NCBI GenBank assembly: GCA_029941785.1
Contig: JAPYTK010000034.1
Span: forward strand, 1-33,752
Length of the DNA: 33,752 bases
Source of the DNA: Polyangiaceae bacterium
Lineage (GTDB): Bacteria > Myxococcota_A > Polyangia > Polyangiales > Polyangiaceae
Reading direction: 5' to 3'
Within the stretch, counting starts at the first letter, position 1. Each line of letters starts with the position of its first letter. The notes below the pieces were generated by a model. It had not been told where the DNA came from. It was given only the letters and a program-made list of their open reading frames with translations, and ran no database searches. The position numbers and the translations under genes are program-made. Positions 2,141 to 32,647 of the stretch are shown here, piece by piece.

Positions 2141-3982
2141 TCAGTTTGCTTCTTCGGCACCTAGCGCGATGGCCGGCAGCTCCAGTTTGGCGCTCGGGGT
2201 GCTGTTGTCGCTCTGAGGTACGGTCGCGCCGCCGGCTTCACTTCCGGAGGCGGTGCCGTTGGGACCACCTTGGCCGCCGTTTGCGACGACCGTGGCGTTG
2301 TTGGTCAGGGCCTCTCCGTAGAAGAGCTTGATGCGTCCGCCGCCGCCGCCACCGCCGCTGTCGTTGGCCGTGATGGTTCCCTGGCCACCCATGCCGCCCG
2401 AGGCGGAAATCGCGCCGCTCAACAGGAGATGCCGGCCGCGCAGCAGCACGCCGCCGCCCGAGCCGCCGCCGTTGCACCGACCTTCGCCCCCTAAATTGCA
2501 GTTGGAGCCACCGGCGGTGCCGTTTGCCGTGATGGCGCCCGAGGCCCTGATCTCGATGCCTTCGGCGTCGATGGTGATCGAGCCACCGCCGCCGCTGCCC
2601 GGGATGTTGTCGCCGCCGCCCCCTGAGCCCATGTCGATGTCCGGGCCGGTGAGCGTGCCGTAGAGCGGACCGCCGACTCCTGGCGTGTTGTTGATATCGA
2701 AGCCGCCCTTGCCGCCGGTGGCTCCGTAGCTGCCGGCGCCGGCGCCCGCGTTGGTGGATGTCGTTCCGGCTCCGGGGCCTGCCTTTGATCCATTGCCCCG
2801 GCCGGTGCCGTTGATCGTGCCCTCGATGAGCACGACCGTGGCCGTGATCGTCACGGCCGAGCCGGCAACCACGCTGAGTATATCGTCCGCCTGCACGTGG
2901 AAGAAATCCGTGACGATGTCGCCGGTGATGTTGGCCGCCCCGTTGGAAACCATTTTGTTGGGGAACGCGGCGTCGAAATCACTGGTCGTGTTCACGCTCG
3001 ATCCGCTGAAATCGTAAAAGGCGTAGACCGTGTTGGCGCCCATGGCGAGCGCGGGAATGCGGATGAAGACGTAGCTCGTGCCGCCTGGATCCCACGCGCC
3101 CAGGGCGTACTTCAGCTCGAAGCCGTTGAGGGAATCGTTGTCCGTGCCGAAGCGCAGATCGGAACCATCGGCGGCGGCAGCGTTGTAGTTGAAGTTGTTC
3201 GAATTGAGCGCGATGACCACGGTGTAGGGGCCCGTGGCGTTGGTCGCCGTGAGCGTGATGGGCTGCCGCTTGAGCCAACCCTCGCAGGCATTGGTGCAGC
3301 CGTCATCATCGACCATGTTTCCGTCGTCGCAGACCTCCGTGCCCAAGTAGAGAAAACTGTCACCACAGCTAGCGGTCTGACAGGTGCCGCCATTGTTGGC
3401 GTCGTCAGGACAGCTGTCGGTATTGGTCATGTTCCCGTCGTCACAAGCTTCACCCATTTGCACGATGCCGTCGCCGCATGCTGGCAGCGTGCAGGTGTTC
3501 GTGCATTCGTCGTCGTCGACCATGTTCCCGTCGTCGCAACTCTCGACGCCCATCTGGACGAAACCGTCGCCGCAGCTCGCGTCCTGGCAGGTGCCGCCAT
3601 TGTTCGGGTCGTCGGGGCAATCGTCGGTGTTGTTGTTGTTCCCGTCGTCACAAGCTTCACCCATTTGCACGATGCCGTCGCCGCACGCCGGTAGGCCGCA
3701 GGCGTTCGTGCAGGCATCGTCGTCGACCATGTTCCCGTCGTCGCAGCCTTCTCCGGGATCGACCTTGCCGTCACCACAGCGAGGGGCAGCCGAGCCGCCT
3801 TGACCACCCGTTGCCGAGCCGCCCGTCGATGTCGCCGTCCCGGAGCTGCCGCCGCTGCCCCCGGTCGCGCCGGCGCCGCTTGTGCTGCCAGCCGTGTCGG
3901 TCGTGTTTCCGCCACCGCAAGCCGTCGCCGCTGCGGCCACTGCGATCATCAAGGAACATCGGCTTAGCCAAGAGCTACCCAT
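2141..3982 (-). CDS. Cysteine-rich repeat (DUF4215) surface lipoprotein with DUF2341-like domain
   Basis: From the ATG at 3982 this is a 613-residue lipoprotein. A signal peptide ends at Cys22 (AAATAC), followed by a Gly/Ser/Thr tether (23-66). Five DUF4215 ('Myxococcus cysteine-rich') repeats follow at about 69-233, each built on CGDG...CDDGN...C. A DUF2341-like beta-sandwich (about 236-365) carries the PYTVVIALNSNNF and YAFYDF type strands. A long Gly-rich C-terminal region (about 400-590) resembles a low-complexity beta-helix. It is likely a secreted or outer-membrane adhesin-like or substrate-binding protein; no catalytic site is visible. Four further in-frame ATG codons at 3988, 3994, 4000 and 4006 come from a hexamer repeat, and the true start is uncertain. 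The gene begins 87 bp after the stop of the DUF3556-like gene, so they may form an operon. Confidence 0.82.
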   Translation of the reverse strand: MGSSWLSRCSLMIAVAAAATACGGGNTTDTAGSTSGAGATGGSGGSSGTATSTGGSATGGQGGSAAPRCGDGKVDPGEGCDDGNMVDDDACTNACGLPACGDGIVQMGEACDDGNNNNTDDCPDDPNNGGTCQDASCGDGFVQMGVESCDDGNMVDDDECTNTCTLPACGDGIVQMGEACDDGNMTNTDSCPDDANNGGTCQTASCGDSFLYLGTEVCDDGNMVDDDGCTNACEGWLKRQPITLTATNATGPYTVVIALNSNNFNYNAAAADGSDLRFGTDNDSLNGFELKYALGAWDPGGTSYVFIRIPALAMGANTVYAFYDFSGSSVNTTSDFDAAFPNKMVSNGAANITGDIVTDFFHVQADDILSVVAGSAVTITATVVLIEGTINGTGRGNGSKAGPGAGTTSTNAGAGAGSYGATGGKGGFDINNTPGVGGPLYGTLTGPDIDMGSGGGGDNIPGSGGGGSITIDAEGIEIRASGAITANGTAGGSNCNLGGEGRCNGGGSGGGVLLRGRHLLLSGAISASGGMGGQGTITANDSGGGGGGGRIKLFYGEALTNNATVVANGGQGGPNGTASGSEAGGATVPQSDNSTPSAKLELPAIALGAEEAN

Positions 3983-4010
3983 AGACATAGACATAGACAT
4001 AGACATAGAC
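3981..4010. repeat. Hexanucleotide repeat (ATAGAC)x5 across the start of the cysteine-rich lipoprotein gene
   Basis: Five perfect tandem ATAGAC units. On the minus strand each reads ATG TCT in the lipoprotein frame, so the array supplies five alternative in-frame ATG codons (Met-Ser repeated) just before the signal peptide. Because the unit is six bases, copy-number change keeps the frame but alters the N-terminus and the spacing to upstream signals. A TATATT element (minus strand, 4012-4017) sits directly upstream. No Shine-Dalgarno sequence is evident at any of the five ATGs. Confidence 0.9.
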
Positions 4011-4069
4011 CAAATATAGACCGCTTCGCTCCGCTTCGGGGAGTCAAATCGGTGCAGCCAAGACATTGC

Positions 4070-7641: not shown

Positions 7642-10047
7642 ATGAGATGGCTTGCTCGTAGCGCGGTGGTGTCGTTCCTGAGCCTGTCAGTGGGTGGTTT
7701 GGGGTGCAGTGACGAGGCCCTTCAATCGGCGAGCAGTTCCACCGGGGCGGGCGGAGCTGCCGGAGCCGGCGGTTCGGGTGGCAGCCCCGCGCAACCTCCA
7801 GGGGAGGCCCAGCCGCTCGCCGTGCCCGAGTGGATGGTGACGGAGGTCGGCGCGTCCAACGATCCGGTGGTGAGCGCGATGATTGCGGGGACCTTCGACC
7901 TGCCCCCGGCAGGCGACTACCTCGGCTTGAACTGGTGGCCCGTCGCCCCAGGCGAGGACGGCAAGCTGGTCGACACCAATGACGATCGCCTCTACGCCGC
8001 GGCGCGGATCCAGGTTCCCGACGGCCATCACGTCTTCGCGCGCGGTGATACCGTCATATCGTTTTACACCGATAGCCTGGCGCGTCATCCGGGTGACTTT
8101 TATCACTCGAAGAAGATGCGGGTTCCGTTGGCGGCTCACGGCGGGGAGCACCTCATCGTGGTCCGCGCGATGGGCAAGCGCAACACACCCGAGGTCGAGC
8201 TGTGGTCGACGGATGCGGAGATCGTCTTCAACGCGGCCGACGTGACCAAGCCCGATCTCATCGTAGGGGACAGCAGTGAGCGACCCTTTGGCATCGCGGT
8301 GCTCAACATCACCGCTGAGGCGATCGCCGATGTGAGCGCGCGGGTCGTCGAGAGCGACCACTTCGAGGCCACCGAGATCCGCTTTCCTTCGCTGGCGCCT
8401 GACGCGACCACACAGCTCAGCTTTCTCTTGCGGCCGAAGGCACCGCCAGCCGAGGGCGTGCGCGAGCTGTCGGCCACCCTCCGGATCGACTCGCCCGAGC
8501 TCGATTGGGATTACGAAGAGGAGGTCATCGTTCCTGTGGTGCAGGCCGGCGCGCGCTACCGCCACACCAGGCGGAGCCAGGTCGACGCCTCGACGCAGTA
8601 CCACGCCGTGGTGCCTCCGGTCGCCGTGGAGAACGGCAAGACGTACGGGCTGTTTCTCAGCCTGCACGGTGCGGGCGTCGAGGCGAAGGGGCAGGCTGCC
8701 TCCTACGGCCACATGGACTGGGCCTATGTGGTCGCGGCGACGAACCGCAGGCCGTTCGGTTTCGACTGGGAGGAGTGGGGAAGGCTCGACGCGGTCGAGG
8801 CGCTCGACACCGCGATCGCGAGCTACCCGATCGACCCCAACCGCGTGCACCTGACCGGTCATTCGATGGGGGGGCACGGCAGCTGGCACAACGGCGTGCA
8901 CTTCGGTCATCGCTTCGGGGTGGTCGCGCCGAGCGCGGGTTGGATCGCCTTCGACCAATACGGGGGCGGACCGTTTCCCTCCGGCGTGATCGGGCGGGCC
9001 CGGGCCGCGAGCATGACGCTCGATTTCGTCGACAACTTCTCGAACAACGTCGTCTACATCATTCACGGCAGCGCCGACACGAACGTCCCCATCTCGCACG
9101 CCAAGCAGATGAACACCGTGCTGACGCCCATCGTGAGTGATCTGACTTTCCACACCGAGCCTGGAGCGGGCCACTGGTGGGACAACGATCCTGACGAGCC
9201 CGGAGCCGACTGCGTGGACTTTCAGCCAATGATCGACAAGGCCGAGGCCACGATCCTCGATCCCGTCCCGCTCGACTTCACCTTCACGACGCCGGGCTCC
9301 TGGGTCAGCTCGACGCGATCGTTCGCGACCGTGTCCTCGTGCGCCAGCCCCATGGACAACTGCAGCGTGAGCTCGGTCGCGACGGGGACCGACGTGGCGG
9401 TCACGACCAGCAACGTGCGCACGCTGTACATCGACGGCGACGCGCTCAAGTCCAAGCAGGTCGGCTCGCTCACCGTGGACGGCCAATCGCACGCGATCGT
9501 GGACGGCTCGATCCGCATCGGCCCCGAGGGCGGCAAGGTCCCCAGCCTTCACGGTCCGTTGAACCAGGTGTTTCACCGTCCCTTTTGTTTCGTGTGGTCC
9601 GACGACGGCCCCCCTGCCTACCGACACTACGCGGCGTGGCTCCTCTCCTGGTGGTCGGTGATCGGCAACGGGCACGGTTGCGGGCTTCCGCTCAGCGGGC
9701 TGACCGATGATCTGCGTGAGAACTACAACCTCGTGTTTCTCGGCGTGCCGCTCGACGCCGTCGACAAGGCCTCCGATCTCCCCATCGGCTGGACGGACGA
9801 GGCGATCACCGTCGGGGCCAAGAGCTTCAACCAGGCGGCGGTCGCCTTCGTCTATCCACGCGGCGAGCGTCTGTTCGGTTACTGGGCCGCAGCGGCGGGT
9901 CACGAGCACCTGATCTTCAGGTACACGCCGTTTTCTTCCCGAGCGGGGATGCCGGACTATCTCGTCTTCGATACCGACGGCGTGGCCGCTACCGGTTTCT
10001 TCGACGCGGACTGGAAGCTCGCGTCCGCTTACGCGGAGGGTCTCTGA
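7642..10047 (+). CDS. Alpha/beta-hydrolase (prolyl oligopeptidase/esterase-like) lipoprotein
   Basis: An 801-residue lipoprotein. The ATG at 7642 is chosen because it opens a signal peptide ending at VGGLGC, followed by a Gly/Ala/Ser tether. Residues about 60-310 look like beta-rich N-terminal domains. The catalytic domain has LFLSLHGAG (oxyanion strand), the nucleophile elbow GHSMGG (Ser408), a candidate acid at Asp479 in GSADTNVP and His511 in GAGHWW. This arrangement is typical of the polyhydroxybutyrate depolymerase / feruloyl esterase / S9-like group. The C-terminal 250 residues resemble a non-catalytic accessory domain. Substrate unknown; an extracellular ester or peptide is plausible. 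It is divergent from phoD and may share its regulatory region, so a phosphate-linked role is possible but unsupported by the domain itself. Confidence 0.78.
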   Translation: MRWLARSAVVSFLSLSVGGLGCSDEALQSASSSTGAGGAAGAGGSGGSPAQPPGEAQPLAVPEWMVTEVGASNDPVVSAMIAGTFDLPPAGDYLGLNWWPVAPGEDGKLVDTNDDRLYAAARIQVPDGHHVFARGDTVISFYTDSLARHPGDFYHSKKMRVPLAAHGGEHLIVVRAMGKRNTPEVELWSTDAEIVFNAADVTKPDLIVGDSSERPFGIAVLNITAEAIADVSARVVESDHFEATEIRFPSLAPDATTQLSFLLRPKAPPAEGVRELSATLRIDSPELDWDYEEEVIVPVVQAGARYRHTRRSQVDASTQYHAVVPPVAVENGKTYGLFLSLHGAGVEAKGQAASYGHMDWAYVVAATNRRPFGFDWEEWGRLDAVEALDTAIASYPIDPNRVHLTGHSMGGHGSWHNGVHFGHRFGVVAPSAGWIAFDQYGGGPFPSGVIGRARAASMTLDFVDNFSNNVVYIIHGSADTNVPISHAKQMNTVLTPIVSDLTFHTEPGAGHWWDNDPDEPGADCVDFQPMIDKAEATILDPVPLDFTFTTPGSWVSSTRSFATVSSCASPMDNCSVSSVATGTDVAVTTSNVRTLYIDGDALKSKQVGSLTVDGQSHAIVDGSIRIGPEGGKVPSLHGPLNQVFHRPFCFVWSDDGPPAYRHYAAWLLSWWSVIGNGHGCGLPLSGLTDDLRENYNLVFLGVPLDAVDKASDLPIGWTDEAITVGAKSFNQAAVAFVYPRGERLFGYWAAAAGHEHLIFRYTPFSSRAGMPDYLVFDTDGVAATGFFDADWKLASAYAEGL

Positions 10048-10242
10048 TCGGGCCCGACCACCTCAATCGAAGCAGGTATGGGTGACCCTGAGAGTCGAGT
10101 TCTTCAAGACGCTCGTGCCGATCGCCGGCGAGCGGTGACGACGATACCGCGCGCGATGCCAGCCTGGCGCACTCCGCGACGCACCTCGGTTCCTGCGTGG
10201 AGGGGGGAGCAAGGCCTGAGACGAGACGGCTCGGCAAATCGT

Positions 10243-10273
10243 TGAATTGGCGTTTTGTCAATGTCGAATTGGT
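10243..10273 (+). promoter_or_regulatory. Direct repeat GAATTGG spaced 22 bp, candidate Pho-type operator
   Basis: GAATTGG occurs at 10244-10250 and 10266-10272, exactly 22 bp apart (two helical turns on one face). The sequence between them includes TTTTGTCAATG. PhoB/PhoP-type regulators bind direct repeats in 11-bp register, and the genes downstream encode phosphate uptake, so this could be a regulator site. It does not match the E. coli Pho box, and the assignment is inference. Confidence 0.3.
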
Positions 10274-10310
10274 GCCATCGAAAAGTGGGTGGCACGTGGG
10301 TTTTTGTTGT

Positions 10311-10325
10311 TTGGCGTTTGGCCAA
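10311..10325 (+). promoter_or_regulatory. Inverted repeat TTGGC-N5-GCCAA upstream of Na/Pi gene
   Basis: A perfect 5+5 inverted repeat with a 5-bp centre, 41 bp upstream of the symporter ATG. The size and spacing suit a dimeric repressor or activator operator near a promoter. No regulator gene is adjacent, so the partner is unknown. Confidence 0.35.
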
Positions 10326-10366
10326 CCATGATACGTGGCGGCCACGAGCAAGCCGGAGTCGGACCC

Positions 10367-11542
10367 ATGAGCGAGATATCGTCCACCGTTCCCCCGCCGA
10401 AACCACCCCAGGAGGGTGGGGGTAAGTTCTATGCTTGGCTTCGACTGGGACAGGTTCTTTCTCTCCTGTTCATCTTCCTGATCGGGATCCGGGGGCTTGG
10501 CACCGGTTTCAAAGGCCTGGGCAAGCCACTGCTCGACAGCCTGTTCTTGGTCACGGATAACCCCTTCGTCGGCTTGGCGGTCGGGATCCTCGCTACCACC
10601 TTGGTGCAGAGTTCCTCGGTAACCACCGCGATGATCGTTGGGCTCGTCGGCGCATCCGAGAACGCCCTGCCGGTGGAGAACGCCATTCCGATGATCATGG
10701 GCGCGAACATCGGAACCACCGTAACGAACACCATCGTGTCTCTCGGGCACGTGTCTCGACGGGACGAGTTTCAGCGCGCGTTTGAGGCGGCCACCTGCCA
10801 CGACTTCTTCAACTTCATCACTGTGGCGGTGCTTCTGCCGCTGGAGCTGGCCACCGGTTTTCTGAGGCGTTCGTCGGAAGTTCTCGCCGCCTACGTTAGC
10901 GGCGGGAGCGGTCCGGGCAAGCTGCCGAACCCGATCAAGACCGTCACCAAGGGGGCCGTCGAACAGCTCCAGCACGGGATTGAGACGTTCAGCGGAAGCT
11001 CGAAGGCGCAGGCGATCATCCTGATCATCCTGTCGGCAATCATCATCTTCGGCGCGCTGTACATGATCGTGCGCACCCTGCGCCGCCTCGCCGCCACCCG
11101 CCTGCAGGTCTACATCACACGCTCCTTTGGCAAGAACGCCTACCTCGGCATCGTCGTCGGCATCGTGGTGACCGTGATGGTGCAGAGCAGCTCGATCACC
11201 ACCTCGGTGATGGTGCCCTTGGCAGCGGCGGGGATCGTGACCTTGCGGCAGGTGTTTCCGGTCAATATCGGCGCGAACATCGGTACGACGGTCACGGCGA
11301 TTTTGGCGTCGATGGCGGCGGCGGAAGCGGGCGGCGTTCAAATCGCCATCGTGCACCTCTTGTTCAATCTGTTGGGCACGCTCATGATCTACCCTTGGAA
11401 AAAGACCCGCGAGATCCCGCTTCGTATGGCCGAGTGGTTGGCGGCCATTGCGACAAATAACAAGAAGGCCGCACTCGTGTACGTGATTGCGCTATTTTAC
11501 GGACTACCCGCCCTGTTAATCCTCATCAGCAAATCGGTCTGA
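10367..11542 (+). CDS. Na/Pi cotransporter family protein (NptA/SLC34-like)
   Basis: A 391-residue polytopic membrane protein with the duplicated hallmark of sodium-phosphate symporters. QSSSVTT begins at Gln81 and QSSSITT at Gln273, each followed by a GANIGTT motif, reflecting the inverted-repeat architecture of the family. It should move inorganic phosphate across the inner membrane, coupled to sodium; some bacterial members are thought to export. The ATG at 10367 (MSEISSTV) is preferred over far-upstream in-frame codons because the preceding stretch does not look coding. The C-terminal PhoU domain seen in many homologues is absent here and is supplied by the next gene, which starts one base after this stop. 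Confidence 0.9.
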   Translation: MSEISSTVPPPKPPQEGGGKFYAWLRLGQVLSLLFIFLIGIRGLGTGFKGLGKPLLDSLFLVTDNPFVGLAVGILATTLVQSSSVTTAMIVGLVGASENALPVENAIPMIMGANIGTTVTNTIVSLGHVSRRDEFQRAFEAATCHDFFNFITVAVLLPLELATGFLRRSSEVLAAYVSGGSGPGKLPNPIKTVTKGAVEQLQHGIETFSGSSKAQAIILIILSAIIIFGALYMIVRTLRRLAATRLQVYITRSFGKNAYLGIVVGIVVTVMVQSSSITTSVMVPLAAAGIVTLRQVFPVNIGANIGTTVTAILASMAAAEAGGVQIAIVHLLFNLLGTLMIYPWKKTREIPLRMAEWLAAIATNNKKAALVYVIALFYGLPALLILISKSV

Positions 11543-12265: not shown

Positions 12266-12389
12266 GCTTGATCCAGGTGACGAAACCGTCTCCGAACCAT
12301 ATTTCGCATACTTACGATGTGGTTCTATGTAGGCAATAGTGGCATACGCCTTGCTTGTAGGACTCGCCAGAGCACAGAGAGGACATGCC

Positions 12390-13232
12390 ATGAAGAGTTT
12401 CGTTCGTTCGTTGAGTTTTGCCGTTGCCGTTTCTGCCGCCGTGATCGGCGTCGGTTGCACCGCTGACCTGGGTCAAGACCAGGGCAATCAGACCGACAAT
12501 CAACGCACCGGCGCGTTCGAGGTCTTCGAGGGCCAGAACGGTCAATATTACTTTCGACTGCGAGCGGCCAACGGCGAGATCGTATTGGCCTCGGAGGGCT
12601 ACGTCAGCAAACAAGGCGCGGACACCGGTGTCGAGTCTGTCAAGGCGCACGCGGTCATCGCGAACAACTTCGAACAGCGTGACTCGGCCGACGGTCAGTT
12701 TTACTTCGTTCTCAAGGCCGACAACGGCGAGATCATCGGGACGAGCGAGACCTACGTGTCGACATCGAATGCCAAGCGGGGCGCCGAGACGGTACGGCAG
12801 ATTGTCGCCAAAATCCTTCGCGCGGAGGCAGCGGCCACGGGCGGGGCGCACTTTGACATTTTCGTCGGTGCGGACGACCAGTATTACTTTCATCTGCAGG
12901 CCGCCAACGGCGAGATCGTGCTTCAGAGCGAGGGCTACGTGAGTGAGCAAGGTGCGCGCAGCGGCGTGGCTTCGGTTCGGACGCACGGCAAGCTCGCGGA
13001 GAACTTCACCATCGCCGAGTCAGCGGACGAGCAGTTTTACTTCGTGCTCAAAGCGAACAACGGCGAGACCATTGGCGTCAGCGAGACTTACGTCTCCAAA
13101 TCGAACGCCGAGCGCGGGGTCGAAGGCGTCGTACAATTGCTCGTGAGCGAGCGGGTCGCTGAGGCGGGTGAGGCCTTCGAGAACGAAGAGGATGCGACCG
13201 TGGCTGTCGCGCAGCAAAGTGCGGCCGAGTAG
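12390..13232 (+). CDS. Lipoprotein with four DUF1508 (YegP-type) repeats
   Basis: A 280-residue lipoprotein: signal peptide ending at Cys23 (GVGC), a Gln/Asn/Asp-rich linker, then four DUF1508 units at about 43-87, 94-139, 154-198 and 206-250, and an acidic tail. Each unit has the (Q/D)(Y/F)YF.L.A.NGE.I..SE.YVS..N/G A..G pattern. Units 1 and 3 (SEGYVS, QGA) resemble each other, as do 2 and 4 (SETYVS, SNA), so an A-B pair has been duplicated. Known YegP-like proteins are usually small, with one or two units and no export signal; their function is poorly defined. The ATG at 12390 has a GAGAGGA ribosome binding site. It ends 27 bp before the Ntn hydrolase start, so they are probably cotranscribed. 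Confidence 0.88.
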   Translation: MKSFVRSLSFAVAVSAAVIGVGCTADLGQDQGNQTDNQRTGAFEVFEGQNGQYYFRLRAANGEIVLASEGYVSKQGADTGVESVKAHAVIANNFEQRDSADGQFYFVLKADNGEIIGTSETYVSTSNAKRGAETVRQIVAKILRAEAAATGGAHFDIFVGADDQYYFHLQAANGEIVLQSEGYVSEQGARSGVASVRTHGKLAENFTIAESADEQFYFVLKANNGETIGVSETYVSKSNAERGVEGVVQLLVSERVAEAGEAFENEEDATVAVAQQSAAE

Positions 13233-13259: not shown

Positions 13260-15380
13260 GTGCGAGCGAAGCTGACACGAGACGAGCACGGGATCTTCCA
13301 CATCGCAGCGGCCGAGGAAATCGACCGCGCCTGGGGGCTGGGCTACGCTCACGCTACCGATCGGGCATTGCAGCTGTTGTTCATGCGCTTGTTGGGCCGC
13401 GGCGAGCTGGGCAAGTACCTGGACAGCAGCGACGCATCGCTCGAGATCGATACGTTCTTTCGGCGAATGAATTGGGCCGGCGAACCCGATGAGGTCGCCG
13501 AGCTGAGCGATCGAGCGCGCGCGGTGTGTTTGGCCTACGCAGAGGGGATCAACGCTGGGCTGGCCGGCAAGGTGCCCTGGGAGCTGAAATTTGCTGGCTA
13601 CAAGAAGCTCGAACCGTGGACTATCGAGGACGGCTTTCTTCTGGCTCGCATGACGAGCTATCTCACGCTCGCGCAATCGCAGGGCGAAATGGAGCGACTG
13701 CTCGTGCAGATGGTGCAAGCCGGCGTGAAGCGGCCGCTCCTGGACGAGCTGTTTCCCGGTCAGCTGGATGACTTGGACGAGGGGCTCGTTCGGCAAGTGA
13801 CACTGGTCGAGCGAATCGTACCGGAGAGCGTCAAGTGGGCCACGGGCGGTGCGCGGATGATGGCCTCGAACAACTGGGTGATCGGTCCGGAGCGCAGCGA
13901 GAGTGGGAAGGCGATGCTCGCCAACGACCCTCACCTCGAGGTCAATCGCCTCCCGGCCGTTTGGTACGAGGTCGTGATCGAGGGGGGAGACCGCTGGGCG
14001 ATCGCGGCGACCATGCCCGGGATCCCTGGCCTCGTGACGGCCCGCACGCCGGACCTTGCCTGGGGACCGACCTACGCCTTCATGGACGCCATCGATTCCT
14101 GGGTCGAGCACTGCAAGGACGGGCAGTTTCGGCGAGGCGAAAACTGGGAGTCGTTCGATCTGCGGCAGGAGACGATCGAGCGCAAAGGAAAGCAGCCGGT
14201 CGTCGTGACCTTTTACGAGAACATGCACGGGGTGCTCGAGGGGGATCCGAGTTCCGTTGAGGAGCAGCATTTGCTGTGCACGCGGTGGGCCGGAAGCTCC
14301 ATGGGCGCTCTCTCCTTCAACGCCATGATCCAGATGTGGGACGCGACCGACGTCGTGAGCGGCATGGAGGTGATCCGCGAGCTCGAGGGGGCTTTCAGTT
14401 GGGTATTGGCCGATGCCGACGGCAACATTGGCTTTCAGATGTCGGGCCTGATGCCGGCCCGCAAGGACGGCTGGCTGGGCTTTACCCCTATGCCGGGTTG
14501 GATCGAGGACAACGACTGGCGAGGCGTCATGCCGAGCGCCGAGCTGCCGAGCTGCTTGAATCCGGAGGCCGGTTTTTTCGCCACCGCGAATCAAGATCTG
14601 AACGCCTACGGAGTTGCCCGTCCGATCACCGTTCACCAAGGTCCGTATCGTGCGGATCGGATCGCCGAGATCATTCGCGAGAAAAAGAAGCTCTCGCGCG
14701 AGGACATGGCCGCCATTCAGCTCGACATGCGGTCAGCCCAAGCGCCGCTCTTCATGGAGGTTCTTCGCCCGCTACTGCCCGATACGCATCAAGGGAAGCT
14801 GCTCGCCGAGTGGGACTACGGCTACGAGCTGTCGAGTCGCGGGGCCTTCCTGTTCGAGCGGGTATACGAAGAGATCTTGCGCAGCGTCTTCGGTCCGCAC
14901 CTCGGTGAGGAGGTCTTGTCCTTTCTCTGGGGCGGAACGGGCATGTTCGCCGATTTTTTCATCAACTTCGATCGCGTGCTGTTGTCTGACGAGTCGAGCT
15001 GGTTCATGAAGGATCGTGCCACCCTGTACCGGGAAGCCGCGGACCGCGCGCTGCAGATCGAGCCGCGACCGTGGGGTCAGGGGCGAGAACTCGTGCTTTC
15101 GCACATTCTGTTCGGCGGGAAGCTGCCAGCTTGGATGGGCTTCGACCGTGGTCCTATACAACTCGCTGGCGGACGGGCCACTCCTCATCAGGGGCAGCTG
15201 TATCGGTCGGGCGATCGCGCCACGAGCTTCGCGCCATCCATACGCTTCTTGACCGATTTTGCGGAAGATGCGGCTCACACGCGTCTCATGGGCGGTGTGA
15301 GTGATCGGCGCTTCTCGAAGCTTTACTGCAACGAGCTCGGTCCATGGCTGGCGGGAACCTACAAGAAGCTCCAGCCCTGA
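13260..15380 (+). CDS. Penicillin acylase (Ntn hydrolase) family protein lacking a signal peptide
   Basis: A 706-residue member of the penicillin/acyl-homoserine-lactone acylase family (peptidase S45 clan). The N-terminus RDEHGIFHI with GLGYAHATDRALQL is the usual alpha-chain start. The nucleophile is Ser203 in MMASNNWVIG, which would become the beta-chain N-terminus after self-cleavage, giving about 202 and 504 residues. NDPHLEVNRLPAVWYEV follows as in the family, and FATANQD marks the later conserved Asn region. Enzymes cleave amide bonds of acylated substrates; the substrate here is unknown. Most homologues are periplasmic, but here an in-frame TAG at 13230 and the absence of ATG, GTG or TTG before the GTG at 13260 rule out an N-terminal signal. 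The stop overlaps the next start (TGATG). Confidence 0.88.
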   Translation: MRAKLTRDEHGIFHIAAAEEIDRAWGLGYAHATDRALQLLFMRLLGRGELGKYLDSSDASLEIDTFFRRMNWAGEPDEVAELSDRARAVCLAYAEGINAGLAGKVPWELKFAGYKKLEPWTIEDGFLLARMTSYLTLAQSQGEMERLLVQMVQAGVKRPLLDELFPGQLDDLDEGLVRQVTLVERIVPESVKWATGGARMMASNNWVIGPERSESGKAMLANDPHLEVNRLPAVWYEVVIEGGDRWAIAATMPGIPGLVTARTPDLAWGPTYAFMDAIDSWVEHCKDGQFRRGENWESFDLRQETIERKGKQPVVVTFYENMHGVLEGDPSSVEEQHLLCTRWAGSSMGALSFNAMIQMWDATDVVSGMEVIRELEGAFSWVLADADGNIGFQMSGLMPARKDGWLGFTPMPGWIEDNDWRGVMPSAELPSCLNPEAGFFATANQDLNAYGVARPITVHQGPYRADRIAEIIREKKKLSREDMAAIQLDMRSAQAPLFMEVLRPLLPDTHQGKLLAEWDYGYELSSRGAFLFERVYEEILRSVFGPHLGEEVLSFLWGGTGMFADFFINFDRVLLSDESSWFMKDRATLYREAADRALQIEPRPWGQGRELVLSHILFGGKLPAWMGFDRGPIQLAGGRATPHQGQLYRSGDRATSFAPSIRFLTDFAEDAAHTRLMGGVSDRRFSKLYCNELGPWLAGTYKKLQP

Positions 15381-17722
15381 TGTCCCGTCGTTTGCGTTTG
15401 TTCGCGGTCCTCGTCGCCTTCGTCAGTTGCGGGTGCCCCGCCGACCCTCCGCCGCCCGGGCCGCTTGCCGCGAGCGCGTCGGCCGGCCGGGTTCGGTATC
15501 TCGACGTGCGTACGCGGCACGAGTTTCGCGGTGGCCACATTCCTACCGCGAAGAACATTCCGGTGGACGAACTGGCAGGACGAATCGGTGATATTCGCGA
15601 TTGGCGGGACCACGAGGTCGCGACCGTGTGCCAGGTCGGTGCGCGATCGGCGCGCGCCGCGAAGATCTTGCGCGCGCGTGGGTTTACGCACGTGCGCAAC
15701 CTCGATGGCGGCATGGCCGCATGGACGGGCGATCTCAATGGTCAGCGCCTCGATCGGATCGACGCGGCAGCTTACCGGGCCGGCTATCTTCTCGGCGCGG
15801 TCTTGGTCCGAGTGGTCAAACCCGAAGGTCGATTGCGGGCGCCGGGCCTGCTCGTACGCACCGTGTTTCCCGGGGGGCCGGTCGCGAAGGTCTTGCGGGC
15901 CGGGGACTTCATCACGAAGGTCGCTGGCGAGGCCCTGACGACCGAGCGCGTGCGTTCTGTGCGCTACCGGGACATCTTTCCTCTCGGCGAGAAGGTGCGG
16001 GTGACGGTGCAGCGGGCCGGCACTTCTCGGACGATGACGCTCATCATGCGCGAGCCGACGCGGCCGGCGGGCGAATCGATGCCAATGGGTCCCTTGCCCG
16101 CCGACCTCCTACGGGCCACCTCGGTGTCGGAGATGTCGGCGGTCGTCGAGGCGGGCGCCCTCGACCGCGCAGCGTGGGCCCCTACGGTTCTCCCTGCGGT
16201 AGCACGGGTGCACCGCGATCTGCTCAAGGGATTCGGTACCTGGCCCGACGCGGCTGCCATCCCGGTGGCGTCGGATGTGCTCGCGCAGGCCCGCCTCGCG
16301 CTTGATCGCGCGGTACGCTCGTTCCAGGTGGAGTTTGCCGACCGTGGGCTCGACGACGGTGCCCGCACGGGTACCCGGGACGAATTGATGGTCCGACTAC
16401 AACGCTTCGCCGTCCGGGCCCAGGCCGCCCTCAGGAGCGGCCGTCCAACACCAGCCGTCGCCGCGGCTCGGGTGGCTGAAAGCATCCTCCTGCACGATCT
16501 CGAAGAGCAGGCCGTGTCGGTGACGGAGCACGCGCGTCGCTGGCGGGCCACCGATTGGGCTGAACCGCTCGCCCTCAGCTACCGAGGGCTCGCCCTCATC
16601 GCGGATGTGTCGCGCCGCTCATCATGGGGCGAAGCGACGCGTCGTGCTCCTCGCGTGGAAGGCGACGTGCTCGCGTGGCGTGAGACGCCGGTCGGCCCGG
16701 TTGTGATCGGTGGCCCCAAGGCCAATCGTTACCGGGGCCAGTTTGCGGCGATCATCGACCTTGGTGGGAACGACGAGTACGCAGACATTCCTGTGGGGGG
16801 GCCGGCTCTGTTGGTGGATCTCGCCGGTGACGACCTGTACCGCCTCGCCGCCCCCTCCGGTGCGGTCGGGGGTGTGCAACTCTGGTTCGACAAGTCTGGC
16901 GATGACCGGTACGAGACGACGACCTTTGGTCTCGGAGGTGCTTTTCACGGTGTGCAGATCCTTCTGGACCAGTCGGGGAACGACGCCTACGCGGCGCGGT
17001 CCTTGTCGCTGGGGGCAGCGATTTTCGGGGTTGGGATCTTGATCGACGGCGCAGGCAACGACCGTTATCGAGCCGTGCGCGGGGCCATGGGTTTCGGTGG
17101 GCCTCACGGTTTTGGCGCTTTGATCGACCATGCGGGCGACGACGTTTACGAGGCCGTGTCCGTGGCCAAGACATCGATCAAGCTCCTCCATCCGCGCGCG
17201 AGCATGATGCAGGGCTGCGGAATGGGGATTAGGCAGCTGTCCTTTGGCGGTTTGGGCATGCTCATCGATTCTGCCGGTGACGACCGGTACGAAGCGAAGG
17301 AGTATGCTCAGGGCGTGGGCTATGTCGGCGGCCTGGGTGTCCTGTTGGATCGCAAAGGGAACGACCGTTATCGGGGGGAGAAGTTCGTGCAGGCTTCCGG
17401 TGTGCATGCCGGTGTCGGCGTGCTTCGCGATGTGACGGGGGACGACGAGTACGTCCTGACGCGACTGCAGGGGCAGGCGATGGCGTGGGACCTCGGAATC
17501 GCTTTGCTCGAGGACGGTGGCGGGCGGGACTCTTTTCGCGCCCCCGAACGGGCGCAGGCTTTTGCGGCCAACAACGGCATTGCGGTGATGCGTCTCGGCG
17601 GAGCCAATCCCCGGCTGCTCTGCGAGCAGGAGGCCACCTGTCGGGGGCATGCGGGTTCCAACGATTACGCAGGGGGCCGCGGCGCGAAGAGCATCGCCAT
17701 CGTCACGCTCGCTTCGCCGTAG
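15380..17722 (+). CDS. Rhodanese-PDZ lipoprotein with about ten GNDxY-type repeats
   Basis: A 780-residue lipoprotein (signal ending at Cys17 or Cys19). A rhodanese domain (about 28-120) has its active-site Cys84 in CQVGARSA. A PDZ-like domain (about 145-225) shows LLVRTVFPGGPVAKVLRAGDFI. A helical middle (about 230-440) follows. From about residue 460 to 720 there are ten repeats centred on G-G/A-N/D-D-x-Y (for example GAGNDRYRA, SAGDDRYEA), mostly 26-27 residues apart with one 47-residue gap, each preceded by a short hydrophobic strand ending in Asp. The pattern suggests a solenoid of short strands with acidic turns, perhaps metal-binding. I do not recognise the repeat as a named family. 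Translation is coupled to the Ntn hydrolase by TGATG. An extracytoplasmic sulfur-handling, scaffold or sensing role is only a guess. Confidence 0.75.
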   Translation: MSRRLRLFAVLVAFVSCGCPADPPPPGPLAASASAGRVRYLDVRTRHEFRGGHIPTAKNIPVDELAGRIGDIRDWRDHEVATVCQVGARSARAAKILRARGFTHVRNLDGGMAAWTGDLNGQRLDRIDAAAYRAGYLLGAVLVRVVKPEGRLRAPGLLVRTVFPGGPVAKVLRAGDFITKVAGEALTTERVRSVRYRDIFPLGEKVRVTVQRAGTSRTMTLIMREPTRPAGESMPMGPLPADLLRATSVSEMSAVVEAGALDRAAWAPTVLPAVARVHRDLLKGFGTWPDAAAIPVASDVLAQARLALDRAVRSFQVEFADRGLDDGARTGTRDELMVRLQRFAVRAQAALRSGRPTPAVAAARVAESILLHDLEEQAVSVTEHARRWRATDWAEPLALSYRGLALIADVSRRSSWGEATRRAPRVEGDVLAWRETPVGPVVIGGPKANRYRGQFAAIIDLGGNDEYADIPVGGPALLVDLAGDDLYRLAAPSGAVGGVQLWFDKSGDDRYETTTFGLGGAFHGVQILLDQSGNDAYAARSLSLGAAIFGVGILIDGAGNDRYRAVRGAMGFGGPHGFGALIDHAGDDVYEAVSVAKTSIKLLHPRASMMQGCGMGIRQLSFGGLGMLIDSAGDDRYEAKEYAQGVGYVGGLGVLLDRKGNDRYRGEKFVQASGVHAGVGVLRDVTGDDEYVLTRLQGQAMAWDLGIALLEDGGGRDSFRAPERAQAFAANNGIAVMRLGGANPRLLCEQEATCRGHAGSNDYAGGRGAKSIAIVTLASP
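16763..17535 (+). repeat. Coding repeats: ten GNDxY-type units
   Basis: Unit cores begin near 16763, 16823, 16895, 16973, 17051, 17132, 17273, 17354, 17435 and 17516. Spacings are 60, 72, 78, 78, 81, 141, 81, 81 and 81 bases, all multiples of three. The 141-base interval appears to hold one degenerate or replaced unit. Core codons vary (gatgaccggtac, aacgaccgttat, gacgacgagtac), so protein conservation rather than recent DNA duplication explains the pattern. Confidence 0.8.
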
Positions 17723-29395: not shown

Positions 29396-30943
29396 TCAGA
29401 GCACGCCGATGACCAGCTGGTGGGTACGCACCTCGTTGCTCGCGCTGAACCGGACCCACTCCGAACCCGCTCCGCCGAGGCTATCGACGTGCATTCCGAC
29501 GGAGAACTTACCGCCGAGCGCGGCGTTGATATCCGTGACCGCTTGAGCGTTGAGCGGAATGTCGAGCACCTTCCCCTTGTCGGTCAAGGCGACGACAAAG
29601 GGCCCGTAGGTATTGCCCGACATCAGATCGGTATAGATGGGCACGCTGTTGCCGTTGGCCTCGAGCGTCGCTGCTGCCGTGCTCACATCCCACACGGACA
29701 TGCTCTCGCTGATGTCGGTGCCGCCGTAATTCTCGATCTCCATCTTGAGGGCCGCGGTGATGACCGTGCCACTCACGCCAGCCAAATCGAAGATGAAGTA
29801 GGAGTTGTATTGGTTCGTGGCTGAGGTCTGGCCCGTCAGCGTGTTGTTGTTGTTCGACGTGTGGTTGCCCGTGTTCCTCCACCAACCTCGCTCGATGGCG
29901 TCCTTGGTTACCATGTTCGGCTGGCAATCGGAGTCGGTCTGAATCGTGCAGCCTTGGGGACAGCAAAAGTCGCCGCCCATACACATCGTGATGTTGTTCA
30001 GTCCGATGCAGTTTCCCGACGAGCAGTAGTCGCCACTCGAACAGTAGCTGTTGTCGTTGCAGCCTTGACCCTCATTGGAGGCTTGCGGGTTGCAGTTGCC
30101 CATGTTGTCGCAAATGCCCTGGTTGCATTGGTCGCTCGCCTCGGCGCAGGTGCCGCCGGCGGGGATGGGCACGCTGACGCAATCGCCCGACTGTGGATTG
30201 CAGACGCCATCGAAGCATCCGACGGTTTGGCTCGAGCAGTCTTTCGCGGCACCACCGACGCAGGAGCCCTCACTGCACTGCTTGTTGACCGTGCACAGGT
30301 CATTCTTGTCGACACACGACTTGCCGTCGTTGCCCGCCACCGGTTCACACAAGCCGTTTTGCGGATTGCACTGCGACACGTGACAATCATCGGGCTTGGG
30401 GGCGAAAAAGCAGTCCTTCTCCAACCCTCCGCTGCACAGGCCTCCCTGGCATACGGCATTGATCTTACAAAGATCGGCGGCCGTGCACGGCGCCCCGTCC
30501 ATGGCGGGGGTGAGTCCGCACGATTGACCGACCTCGTTGCAGAGCACGCTCTGGCAATCCGGGGCGCTCATCCCGCAGTCGTTCATCGGCCCGCCGACGC
30601 ATTCGCCATTGGCATCGCAGATGTCGTCGGTCGTGCAGAACTTCCCATCGTCGCAGGGGGCCCCGCCTTCGGTTGGGAGGATTTCGCAGTTCTTGGTCGC
30701 CGCGTTGCAAGTCGCCTCATGACAGGCGTCGGTCTTGATGGTGCTGCAGTCGATGCCGCACGGCATGCCGGCGGTCGCGCCGCCCGATCCTCCGCTTCCG
30801 CCGGCTCCGCCGTTTGCTACCGCGGTGGAGCCGCCCAAACTCGAGTCGTCGTCTGACGTGCCCCCGTCAAAAACGGCCGCTCGTGCGCACGCCGCAAGCC
30901 AGATAGCGCCACCCATAAGCCAAACAATTCGATTCGACGTCAT
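29396..30943 (-). CDS. Cysteine-rich stalk lipoprotein A with DNRLRE/PEP-CTERM-like beta-sandwich
   Basis: A 515-residue lipoprotein from the ATG at 30943 (GAAGGA upstream). The signal ends at Cys19 (WLAAC), followed by a Gly/Ser/Ala tether. A Cys-rich stalk (about 60-340) holds repeated C-DG-x-x-C units such as PCGIDCSTI, CDDGKFC, DCFF.PKPDDCH, CNPQNGLCEPV and CVGGAAKDCS. The C-terminal ~170 residues (from about 345) form a beta-sandwich-like domain with GWWRNTGNHT, YFIFDLAGVSG and SVWDVSTAAAT, as I recall from PEP-CTERM and DNRLRE-type surface proteins. It is likely displayed on the cell surface, with the stalk stiffened by disulfides. It is the divergent paralogue of the gene at 31190. Confidence 0.8.
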   Translation of the reverse strand: MTSNRIVWLMGGAIWLAACARAAVFDGGTSDDDSSLGGSTAVANGGAGGSGGSGGATAGMPCGIDCSTIKTDACHEATCNAATKNCEILPTEGGAPCDDGKFCTTDDICDANGECVGGPMNDCGMSAPDCQSVLCNEVGQSCGLTPAMDGAPCTAADLCKINAVCQGGLCSGGLEKDCFFAPKPDDCHVSQCNPQNGLCEPVAGNDGKSCVDKNDLCTVNKQCSEGSCVGGAAKDCSSQTVGCFDGVCNPQSGDCVSVPIPAGGTCAEASDQCNQGICDNMGNCNPQASNEGQGCNDNSYCSSGDYCSSGNCIGLNNITMCMGGDFCCPQGCTIQTDSDCQPNMVTKDAIERGWWRNTGNHTSNNNNTLTGQTSATNQYNSYFIFDLAGVSGTVITAALKMEIENYGGTDISESMSVWDVSTAAATLEANGNSVPIYTDLMSGNTYGPFVVALTDKGKVLDIPLNAQAVTDINAALGGKFSVGMHVDSLGGAGSEWVRFSASNEVRTHQLVIGVL

Positions 30944-30996
30944 CCACTCGTTCCTTCGTCCGCCAACGTGTCGCAAGTCGTCACCGCGGGGTCCTT

Positions 30997-31055: not shown

Positions 31056-31193
31056 GTGATCGATGGTCTAGCATGGGCTCTCGCGAAGCCTCGGAGTCTG
31101 CGCGACATGGTGTGTAGACGGGTGAATCGAAGTAAGAAAGCACCAAACGCCCGAACTTCAGCGAGACAATTACCGGCAGGAATCATAAGATGA
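31056..31193 (+). CDS. Possible 45-codon leader ORF upstream of lipoprotein B
   Basis: A GTG at 31056 follows AAAGGAGGT (31039-31047), a nearly perfect anti-16S match, with a nine-base gap after GGAGG. The frame runs 45 codons and its TGA (31191-31193) overlaps the ATG of the downstream lipoprotein gene as ATGA. The product would be basic (about ten Arg/Lys in the last 30 residues) with no recognisable domain. Against it, its codons are unlike its neighbours, with many A/T third positions and several AGA, CTA, TTA and ATA codons. If real it may act as a translation-coupling leader. The strong ribosome binding site and exact ATGA overlap are the supporting facts. Confidence 0.35.
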   Translation: MIDGLAWALAKPRSLRDMVCRRVNRSKKAPNARTSARQLPAGIIR

Positions 31194-32647
31194 CGAGCAA
31201 CATCATGGTCTTGCGAGCTTTGTTTCTGTCCGTCTTTTTGGTCTCGGTCATCGGGGGCTGTGCCGCATCGGGCAGCAGGTTCACCTCGACGGAGGACGAC
31301 GATGGCGGCTCAGGCACAAGTGTCGGCGGGCAAGCCGCAAGTGGGGGAGCCGCTGCGGTGGGCGGGGCGTCTGCAGGAGATGGCGGCGCCGGCGGCGACG
31401 CTACGACGTGGCCATGCGGGATTGACTGCAGCACCATCGCGACGGATCCATGCCGCGAAGCGGTGTGCAATCTGCAGTCCAAGCAGTGCAGCATCGAAGA
31501 CACGCTCGATGGCACGGCTTGTGATGACGGGAAGTTTTGCACCGTAGGCGAAAGCTGTCAGGCCGGGATGTGCGCCGGGGGTTCGCAGAACGACTGCGAT
31601 ATCGAGGTTCCACCTTGCACTGATGTCATCTGTCAGGAGTCGACGCAGACCTGTTCGATGGCGCCTGCGATGGACGGCGCATCGTGCGCGCCGACCGACC
31701 TGTGCCAGATCAACTCCTCATGCAAGAGCGGCCTTTGCGTGGGGACGGTGAAGGACTGTTTCTTTTCGCCGAAGCCCGACGATTGCCACATTTCGGAGTG
31801 CAATCCGCAAAACGGCTTGTGCGAGCCTGTGCCCGGCAATGACGGTCAGGCCTGCGACGACAAGAGCGATTGGTGCACGGTCGACAAGAGCTGCGCGGGG
31901 GGCGCGTGCGTCGGCGGTCAGGCGAAGGACTGCTCCGCGCTGACCCAAGGTTGCGTCACGGGGCTGTGTGATCCGCAGAACGGCAACTGCCAAGCGATGC
32001 CGGTTCTCGATGGTGAGCTGTGCGATGATCTGAACCCATGCACGAACGGCGAGATTTGTCAGATGGGCATGTGCGCCGGCGGGGCTGCGGTGACGATGTG
32101 CATGGACGGAGACTCCTGCTGTCCCATGGGTTGCGACGAAAACAACGACGTCGACTGCGGGATTGCCGATCTGGACATCGGTCCGTTTGGCAGCACCTAT
32201 TCGAGTTCGGCTGCGACGCGCGGCTACTGGTTCACGGCGCCGACCAGTTTCACCATCAAGGAATTGCGTGTTCCGACGGATGTGGGGACCGACCCGCAGA
32301 ACATCCAGGTGGTTCGCTTCAATGGCGGTGTTCCGCCCAATTATCCGGGCGCGACGACCAATCATCAGACGCTTGCCTATCATAAGGCGGTGCCCGGAAC
32401 GAACTACATCGTGGTGAACATCTCGGTGAACAACGGCGACGTCATCGGGATCCTGGGCGCGCGCGGGACGACGACGATGAAGAACTCCTACGGCAACGGT
32501 AATCCCTACAACACGACGCTGTTCAATTACCCCATCGCGCTGCAGCGTTTGGTGTACCAGGCCAACGTTCACAACACCCAGGCGGGCGCCTTGTCGACAG
32601 AAGCGGGTGGTTCCTACAGCCGGATCGAGATGAAGTACGGACCCTGA
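31190..32647 (+). CDS. Cysteine-rich stalk lipoprotein B with a different C-terminal beta domain
   Basis: A 485-residue lipoprotein: signal ending at Cys24 (VIGGC), Gly/Ala/Ser tether to about 75. Its Cys-rich stalk (about 76-325) is clearly homologous to that of the divergent neighbour, with CGIDCSTI, CDDGKFCT, DLCQINSSC, DCFFSPKPDDCH, CNPQNGLCEPVPGNDG and CVGGQAKDCS. From about 325 the C-terminus differs: FGSTYSSSAATRGYWFTAPTSF, then RVPTDVGTDPQNIQVVRFNGG, GDVIGILGARG and a closing YSRIEMKYGP. This resembles a secreted beta-sandwich of unknown role seen in other surface proteins. AGGAA precedes the ATG at 31190. It converges with the shikimate dehydrogenase-like gene 42 bp away. No enzymatic site is visible. 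Confidence 0.8.
   Translation: MTSNIMVLRALFLSVFLVSVIGGCAASGSRFTSTEDDDGGSGTSVGGQAASGGAAAVGGASAGDGGAGGDATTWPCGIDCSTIATDPCREAVCNLQSKQCSIEDTLDGTACDDGKFCTVGESCQAGMCAGGSQNDCDIEVPPCTDVICQESTQTCSMAPAMDGASCAPTDLCQINSSCKSGLCVGTVKDCFFSPKPDDCHISECNPQNGLCEPVPGNDGQACDDKSDWCTVDKSCAGGACVGGQAKDCSALTQGCVTGLCDPQNGNCQAMPVLDGELCDDLNPCTNGEICQMGMCAGGAAVTMCMDGDSCCPMGCDENNDVDCGIADLDIGPFGSTYSSSAATRGYWFTAPTSFTIKELRVPTDVGTDPQNIQVVRFNGGVPPNYPGATTNHQTLAYHKAVPGTNYIVVNISVNNGDVIGILGARGTTTMKNSYGNGNPYNTTLFNYPIALQRLVYQANVHNTQAGALSTEAGGSYSRIEMKYGP

Follow-up and report, generated by a model that had tools for sequence, protein, structure and literature searches.

The gene and its neighbourhood

What kind of protein is encoded at positions 15380..17722 of the window, the 33,752-nucleotide stretch of Polyangiaceae DNA analysed here, and what might it do in the cell envelope? 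An earlier note, made from the letters of the DNA, had described an exported lipoprotein in which a rhodanese domain, a PDZ-like domain and a helical middle were joined to ten repeats, a combination unfamiliar to its author. The open reading frame proved to be genuine, running from an ATG at 15380 to a stop codon ending at 17722 and giving a product of 780 residues; all features of the protein described below lie, with the gene itself, on the forward strand. A further in-frame ATG is present at 15344, and the signal peptide begins at 15380. The start codon overlaps the stop codon of the upstream neighbour (TGATG), a penicillin-amidase family gene at 13260..15380 on the same strand, which lies outside the domain family studied here. 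This overlap with the TGA of the neighbour suggests translational coupling, and the two genes are likely to be co-transcribed. Downstream lies a sigma-70 family gene.

The upstream gene in the relative L044 differs from the penicillin-amidase family gene of the window, and a conserved operon was ruled out since the neighbours differ between relatives. The only recurrent neighbours were HEAT proteins and members of several families unrelated to one another, each accounting for 2-4 of 62 neighbours. The gene neighbourhoods of the relatives thus gave no hint of function and, because the neighbours do not recur, function was read from the anatomy of the protein.

Signal peptide, rhodanese and PDZ domains

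Residues 1-19 (15380..15436) form the signal peptide, with C17 or C19 as the probable lipobox cysteine. The two candidates, FVS-C17 and SCG-C19, were read from the sequence itself, and the orthologue L044 carries a canonical LSGC lipobox at the equivalent place. The window protein is exported and probably lipid-anchored.

Residues 33-116 (15476..15727) matched the rhodanese family PF00581 at E 1.4e-17 (64.5 bits against a cut-off of 22.2) and rhodaneses in the PDB at E 6e-14. The catalytic loop, C84-Q-V-G87-A-R89 (CxxGxR; 15629..15646), was compared among the three proteins of the same architecture (the window protein, L009 and L044), and C84, G87 and R89 were invariant in all three; Cys84, which had been singled out in the earlier note, thus stands as the cysteine of an intact rhodanese loop. 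The NCBIfam PspE model matched the window protein at E 8e-10, far under the model's own cut-off. In its fold and CxxGxR loop the domain resembles single-domain rhodaneses such as PspE, a periplasmic thiosulfate sulfurtransferase, from which it differs in being fused to a PDZ domain and a solenoid within a protein of 780 residues. The rhodanese and the N-terminal part of the window model, the PDZ domain included, were of low confidence, with no alignment rows covering that part, and the assignment of the domain as a rhodanese is one of sequence.

A PDZ domain was assigned to residues 143-224 (15806..16051) by profile comparisons. Alone, the window protein remained under the Pfam gathering score (PDZ_2, 18.5 vs 27 bits). 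A profile built from the three orthologues matched a PDZ profile at an hhalign E of 2.5e-9 and, at E 4e-6, PDB entries with a PDZ domain, among them a DegP-like chain. The equivalent domain of L046, a relative from Candidatus Latescibacterota, was modelled at good confidence and superposed on the DegS PDZ with Z 14.9 at 1.1 A. Judged from the profiles, the PDZ domain of the window protein is divergent but real. It is of the same kind as those of the HtrA, DegS and DegQ proteases, although, unlike these, the window protein has no protease domain. The helical middle was also recovered, as residues 239-410 (16094..16609), in the secondary structure predicted by AlphaFold2, at low to medium confidence in the window model and mostly high confidence in that of L046; taken as part of a longer model, this region gave no fold match. 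The exported rhodanese, PDZ and repeat protein proposed from the letters is thus upheld by the reading frame, the Pfam match, the profile comparison and the ten motifs described below.

The repeats are predicted to form a beta-solenoid

The motif D..G.D.[YF] was found exactly ten times within residues 460-719 (16757..17536), at 460, 480, 504, 530, 556, 583, 630, 657, 684 and 712, with a spacing of 20-28 residues and a single gap of 47. When residues 420-780 were shuffled 20,000 times, the mean was 0.03 motifs and the maximum 2, against the ten observed. The count of ten repeats is therefore exact for the motifs, but the solenoid domain has 11-12 coils, one of which has lost the motif. This degenerate coil, recognised in the family alignment at residues 739-746 (17594..17617), follows motif 712 and carries L739, A742, P744 and L746 at positions where 87-99% of the relatives retain the motif residue. 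A Gln that recurs in the repeats is missing at 544 and 570 in the window copy. No sequence match to the repeats was obtained in Pfam, NCBIfam, PHROGs, PADLOC or the PDB.

AlphaFold2, run with 55 sequences, predicted residues 420-780 as a hairpin followed by a beta-solenoid, with pLDDT mostly above 90. The beta-hairpin occupies residues 426-452 (16655..16735), where the relatives share the consensus TPxGxxVxGGxGxNxY, and the solenoid domain, delimited by the model, structural alignment and the family alignment, residues 457-780 (16748..17719). The nearest solved fold, by a clear margin, was region IV of the Marinomonas primoryensis ice-binding adhesin (3p4g), which a structural aligner superposed on the window model with Z 19.4 at 2.2 A over 243 residues and 20% identity; the next-best row had Z 13.8. 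The solenoid of L046, from a different phylum, again placed 3p4g first (Z 18.7, 3.3 A, 266 residues), the two models having most of their alignment rows in common and thus not being fully independent. Foldseek returned no significant match for the full window model and weak E-values for the solenoid in both models, and the 3p4g match rests on the second structural aligner and the two models rather than on Foldseek. The window model had no match in a viral fold library. The models point to residues 420-780 as a beta-solenoid of the RTX or Marinomonas-adhesin type, in keeping with the repeated fold that the earlier note had anticipated.

Likeness to calcium-binding solenoids

The RTX calcium loop consists of six residues ending in Asp and bridges Asp residues of adjacent turns, which lie 4.8 A from each other (PMC6891781), and the XGTGND turns of the Marinomonas solenoid are confined to one edge (PMC3492233). 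In both, the six-residue turn holds calcium through Asp and main-chain carbonyls (PMC6891781; PMC3492233). The family turn, D-x-x-G-x-D, is also of six residues, and its Asp residues at phases 0 and 5 are near-invariant in every coil. From this sequence phase, and from the likeness in fold to a Ca2+-bound RTX-like solenoid, we infer an Asp ladder, and we reason by analogy that the D-x-x-G-x-D turns may bind calcium. The fold match thus favours the earlier suggestion of a solenoid with Asp turns able to bind cations and, as the solved structure nearest to it is that of an adhesin solenoid with calcium bound, a dependence on calcium could be tested directly.

Like region IV of the Marinomonas adhesin, the window solenoid has a single G-[ND]-D turn in each coil, all of them along the same edge of the roll. 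The two differ in coil length and motif (19-21 residues with xGTGND in Marinomonas, mostly 26-27 with D-x-x-G-x-D-x-Y in the window) and in their mode of export, the adhesin using type I secretion and the window protein a Sec-type signal. The Marinomonas solenoid also carries a Thr ice-binding array, which the window protein lacks, the +2 positions of its coils being G, A, S, S, A, A, A, K, T and G, with Thr at one of ten; ice binding was rejected on this ground. Conversely, four once-only residues, R, Y, H and D, are an addition of the window protein relative to the Marinomonas solenoid. The likeness to RTX repeats (PF00353, GGxGxDxUx) lies in the six-residue turn ending in Asp with a hydrophobic residue two positions later, and block V of the CyaA RTX domain aligned to the window model with Z 5.2. 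However, the period is different, and the first Gly of the RTX turn is an invariant Asp here. The window repeat, D..G.D.Y with a period of mostly 26-27, does not contain the GGxGxDxUx nonapeptide; PF00353 gave no match in the window protein up to E 10, nor did it appear when 61 relatives were compared with Pfam at E 0.01.

Distribution and phylogeny of the family

With the full protein as query, no match was found in named genomes, its peptide patterns being too specific. An alignment of 14 repeat domains was therefore used in a pattern-based scan of named genomes, and 80 of the 156 matching loci were taken. In all, 78 relatives were aligned, and by the labels of the loci members of the solenoid family occur in at least 16 bacterial phyla: Latescibacterota, Zixiibacteriota, Stahliibacteriota, Planctomycetota, Lentisphaerota, Pseudomonadota, Ignavibacteriota, Nitrospirota, Nitrospinota, Armatimonadota, Acidobacteriota, Electryoneota, Eiseniibacteriota, Fermentibacterota, Thermodesulfobacteriota and Myxococcota. 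One further match labelled Gemmatimonas phototrophica (L051) was left out of the phylum count; its protein shares 91% identity with one from Latescibacterota, and the contig is probably mislabelled or misbinned. Within the phylum of the window, 40 of 189 sampled genomes contained the domain, and the genome of the window itself encodes a second copy (L008) without a rhodanese. The domain is about 330-430 residues long in almost all members, and the number of coils hardly varies. The repeat profile matched no described family, and its relatives are spread more widely than the earlier note had assumed; a search of the open literature likewise gave no description of the solenoid family. PDZ-only matches (L041-L043) were rejected as members because the repeats are absent. 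An origin from viruses or plasmids was rejected, viral contigs and plasmids containing no relatives, as was a role in defence, for which there was no PADLOC match.

Among 61 members scanned for partner domains, PDZ was found in 7, HEAT in 6 and rhodanese in one, the window protein. HEAT repeats lie C-terminal to the solenoid in the long members that were checked, which include proteins from other phyla (L115, L123, L050, L056 and L092), and in several Myxococcota proteins (L014, L015, L017-L020) N-terminal cysteine repeats resembling CxxDxDCPxGxRRC take the place of the rhodanese and PDZ domains. Proteins with a PDZ domain, a helical region and the solenoid in this order are also present in Latescibacterota, Planctomycetota, Eisenbacteria and Nitrospinae; three undescribed proteins from the first three of these groups (L046, L072 and L110) share this order and a common clade with the window protein, but lack its rhodanese. 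The rhodanese fusion was found in the window and in two genomes of one other genus (L009 and L044), that is, in three of 108 genomes of the same bacterial family, with no further case among 284 genomes sampled from the phylum, and was rejected as a common architecture. L009 and L044 have the architecture of the window protein at 36% identity, and both stop at contig ends near residue 584. The combination called unfamiliar is thus rare as regards the rhodanese, whereas the pairing of PDZ with the helical region and solenoid is found in several phyla. It is a real, rare domain combination on a widespread solenoid family that is undescribed in the libraries searched.

A quick tree of 102 solenoid domains, in which L009 and L044 occupy 38-39% of the columns, grouped the window protein with its two relatives of the same architecture in one clade (SH-aLRT 96). 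This clade is nested, with the PDZ-solenoid proteins L046, L072, L110 and L057, in a clade of support 95 that contains nearly all the PDZ-solenoid proteins found; the PDZ-bearing L083 lies elsewhere. The second copy of the window genome (L008) falls in a clade separate from this one. Read most simply, the tree has a PDZ-solenoid gene reaching this lineage through either ancient paralogy or transfer, and gaining the rhodanese at its front. The window was assigned to Myxococcota on the ground that an order-mate genome (L010) is identical over the solenoid domain to a record labelled Myxococcota in the tree (L099). Elsewhere in the phylum, the solenoid lipoproteins L131, L133, L134, L144 and L148, all from a single other family (f24), form a clade of their own that is well separated (support 100).

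A candidate site and its possible roles

When the strongly conserved columns were arranged by coil phase, they comprised the repeat positions, the recurring Gln and four once-only residues: R618 (17231-17233), Y648 (17321-17323), H676 (17405-17407) and D704 (17489-17491), together spanning 17231..17491. Each occurs once, at a non-repeat position, on four successive coils, and H676 and D704 share an identical phase on adjacent coils. They are conserved in 91, 95, 96 and 96% of the 78 relatives, respectively, and 67 of the 78 have the full set. The window copy retains all four; the contigs of L009 and L044 end before these positions, and in the rhodanese-fused proteins the site is thus known from the window alone. 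Four once-only residues in a domain of steady length point towards a site for ligand binding or catalysis, and away from an adhesive repeat of the variable kind, and their conservation suggests that R618/Y648/H676/D704 is a candidate binding or catalytic site. The adhesion once proposed for the repeat, in the sense of a plain adhesive repeat, is not supported, given the near-constant coil number and the four polar residues conserved once each.

We lean slightly towards a protein of the cell envelope whose solenoid is stiffened by calcium and bears a single ligand or active site, with a PDZ for docking and an added sulfur-transfer module, a preference that applies mostly to the anatomy. The domains, the fold class, the family, its conservation and the rarity of the fusion were computed; calcium binding, the role of the site, the PDZ partner and rhodanese activity are the inferred part. 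The stacked Asp residues of the D-x-x-G-x-D-x-Y loops would bind a row of calcium ions, stiffening the rod outside the cytoplasm, and the patch of R618, Y648, H676 and D704 on the rod would bind or act on a ligand, for which a glycan or peptide of the envelope is the likeliest candidate. Docking through the PDZ domain may involve the C-terminal tail of either a partner or a substrate, and the thiosulfate-type rhodanese, added in front in this lineage, could move sulfane sulfur at the same place.

The strongest rival holds that the solenoid is a parallel beta-helix enzyme, a lyase, epimerase or hydrolase of envelope or extracellular glycan, with the four residues as its active site and the PDZ and rhodanese domains as accessories. 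A once-only, near-invariant R/Y/H/D set over at least 16 phyla, the matching phase of H676 and D704 on adjacent coils and a domain length similar in almost all members would all fit such an enzyme, and beta-helix sugar enzymes do align to the model (AlgG epimerase, Z 11.4; PL6 lyase, Z 10.2). However, many non-enzyme beta-helices align equally well or better, a ligand site could also give a conserved cluster, no member with known activity was among those found, and D stands for R618 in several Nitrospira members and F for Y648 in two from Myxococcota (L098 and L099). We therefore take an enzyme to be a minority prospect, if one to be reckoned with. A passive adhesive or spacer rod, whose conservation would reflect no more than folding and in which the four residues would have a structural part, appears improbable to us. 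The nearest fold is indeed an ice-binding adhesin domain, and repeat-phase Gly, Asp and Tyr make up most of the conserved columns, but the coil number is near-constant across phyla, unlike adhesin repeats, the Thr array is absent, and R/Y/H/D stand outside the repeat positions.

It would be very surprising if the protein served in envelope quality control or thiol repair, with the PDZ catching misfolded C-terminal tails, the rhodanese repairing or persulfidating thiols and the solenoid as a scaffold. The HtrA/DegS kind of PDZ is in its favour, as are the HEAT repeats that several other members carry beyond the solenoid and that suggest protein-protein scaffolding. Yet protease, chaperone and sulfur genes do not recur as neighbours, the HtrA-like gene of the window is 8 kb away on the opposite strand, and the conserved R/Y/H/D site would be left unexplained.

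The preferred reading, of a calcium-stiffened envelope protein, can be extended to the family as a whole: an undescribed, broad, calcium-laddered solenoid family with an R-Y-H-D site, which would serve as an enzyme or receptor in the envelopes of bacteria from at least 16 phyla and would here be coupled to sulfur transfer through the rhodanese. In this full form we hold it only tentatively. A domain found so widely, with a fixed architecture and a once-only residue cluster, yet apparently without a Pfam or NCBIfam entry, a structure or a paper in the libraries searched, is what gives the locus its interest; and because fused domains often work together, the rhodanese joined to it here gives a lead to the function of the family.

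Other genes of the window

Three long open reading frames, at 9989-11356, 29396-30976 and 31190-32647 (455, 526 and 485 residues), had no Pfam match at E 0.001. A 641-residue protein at 2141-4066 contains DUF4215 five times, with other recognised domains absent, and a 297-residue protein at 12339-13232 gave four DUF1508 (YegP-like) domain matches. A second rhodanese of the window lies at 820-1965, at the C-terminus of a ThiF/MoeB-like adenylyltransferase.
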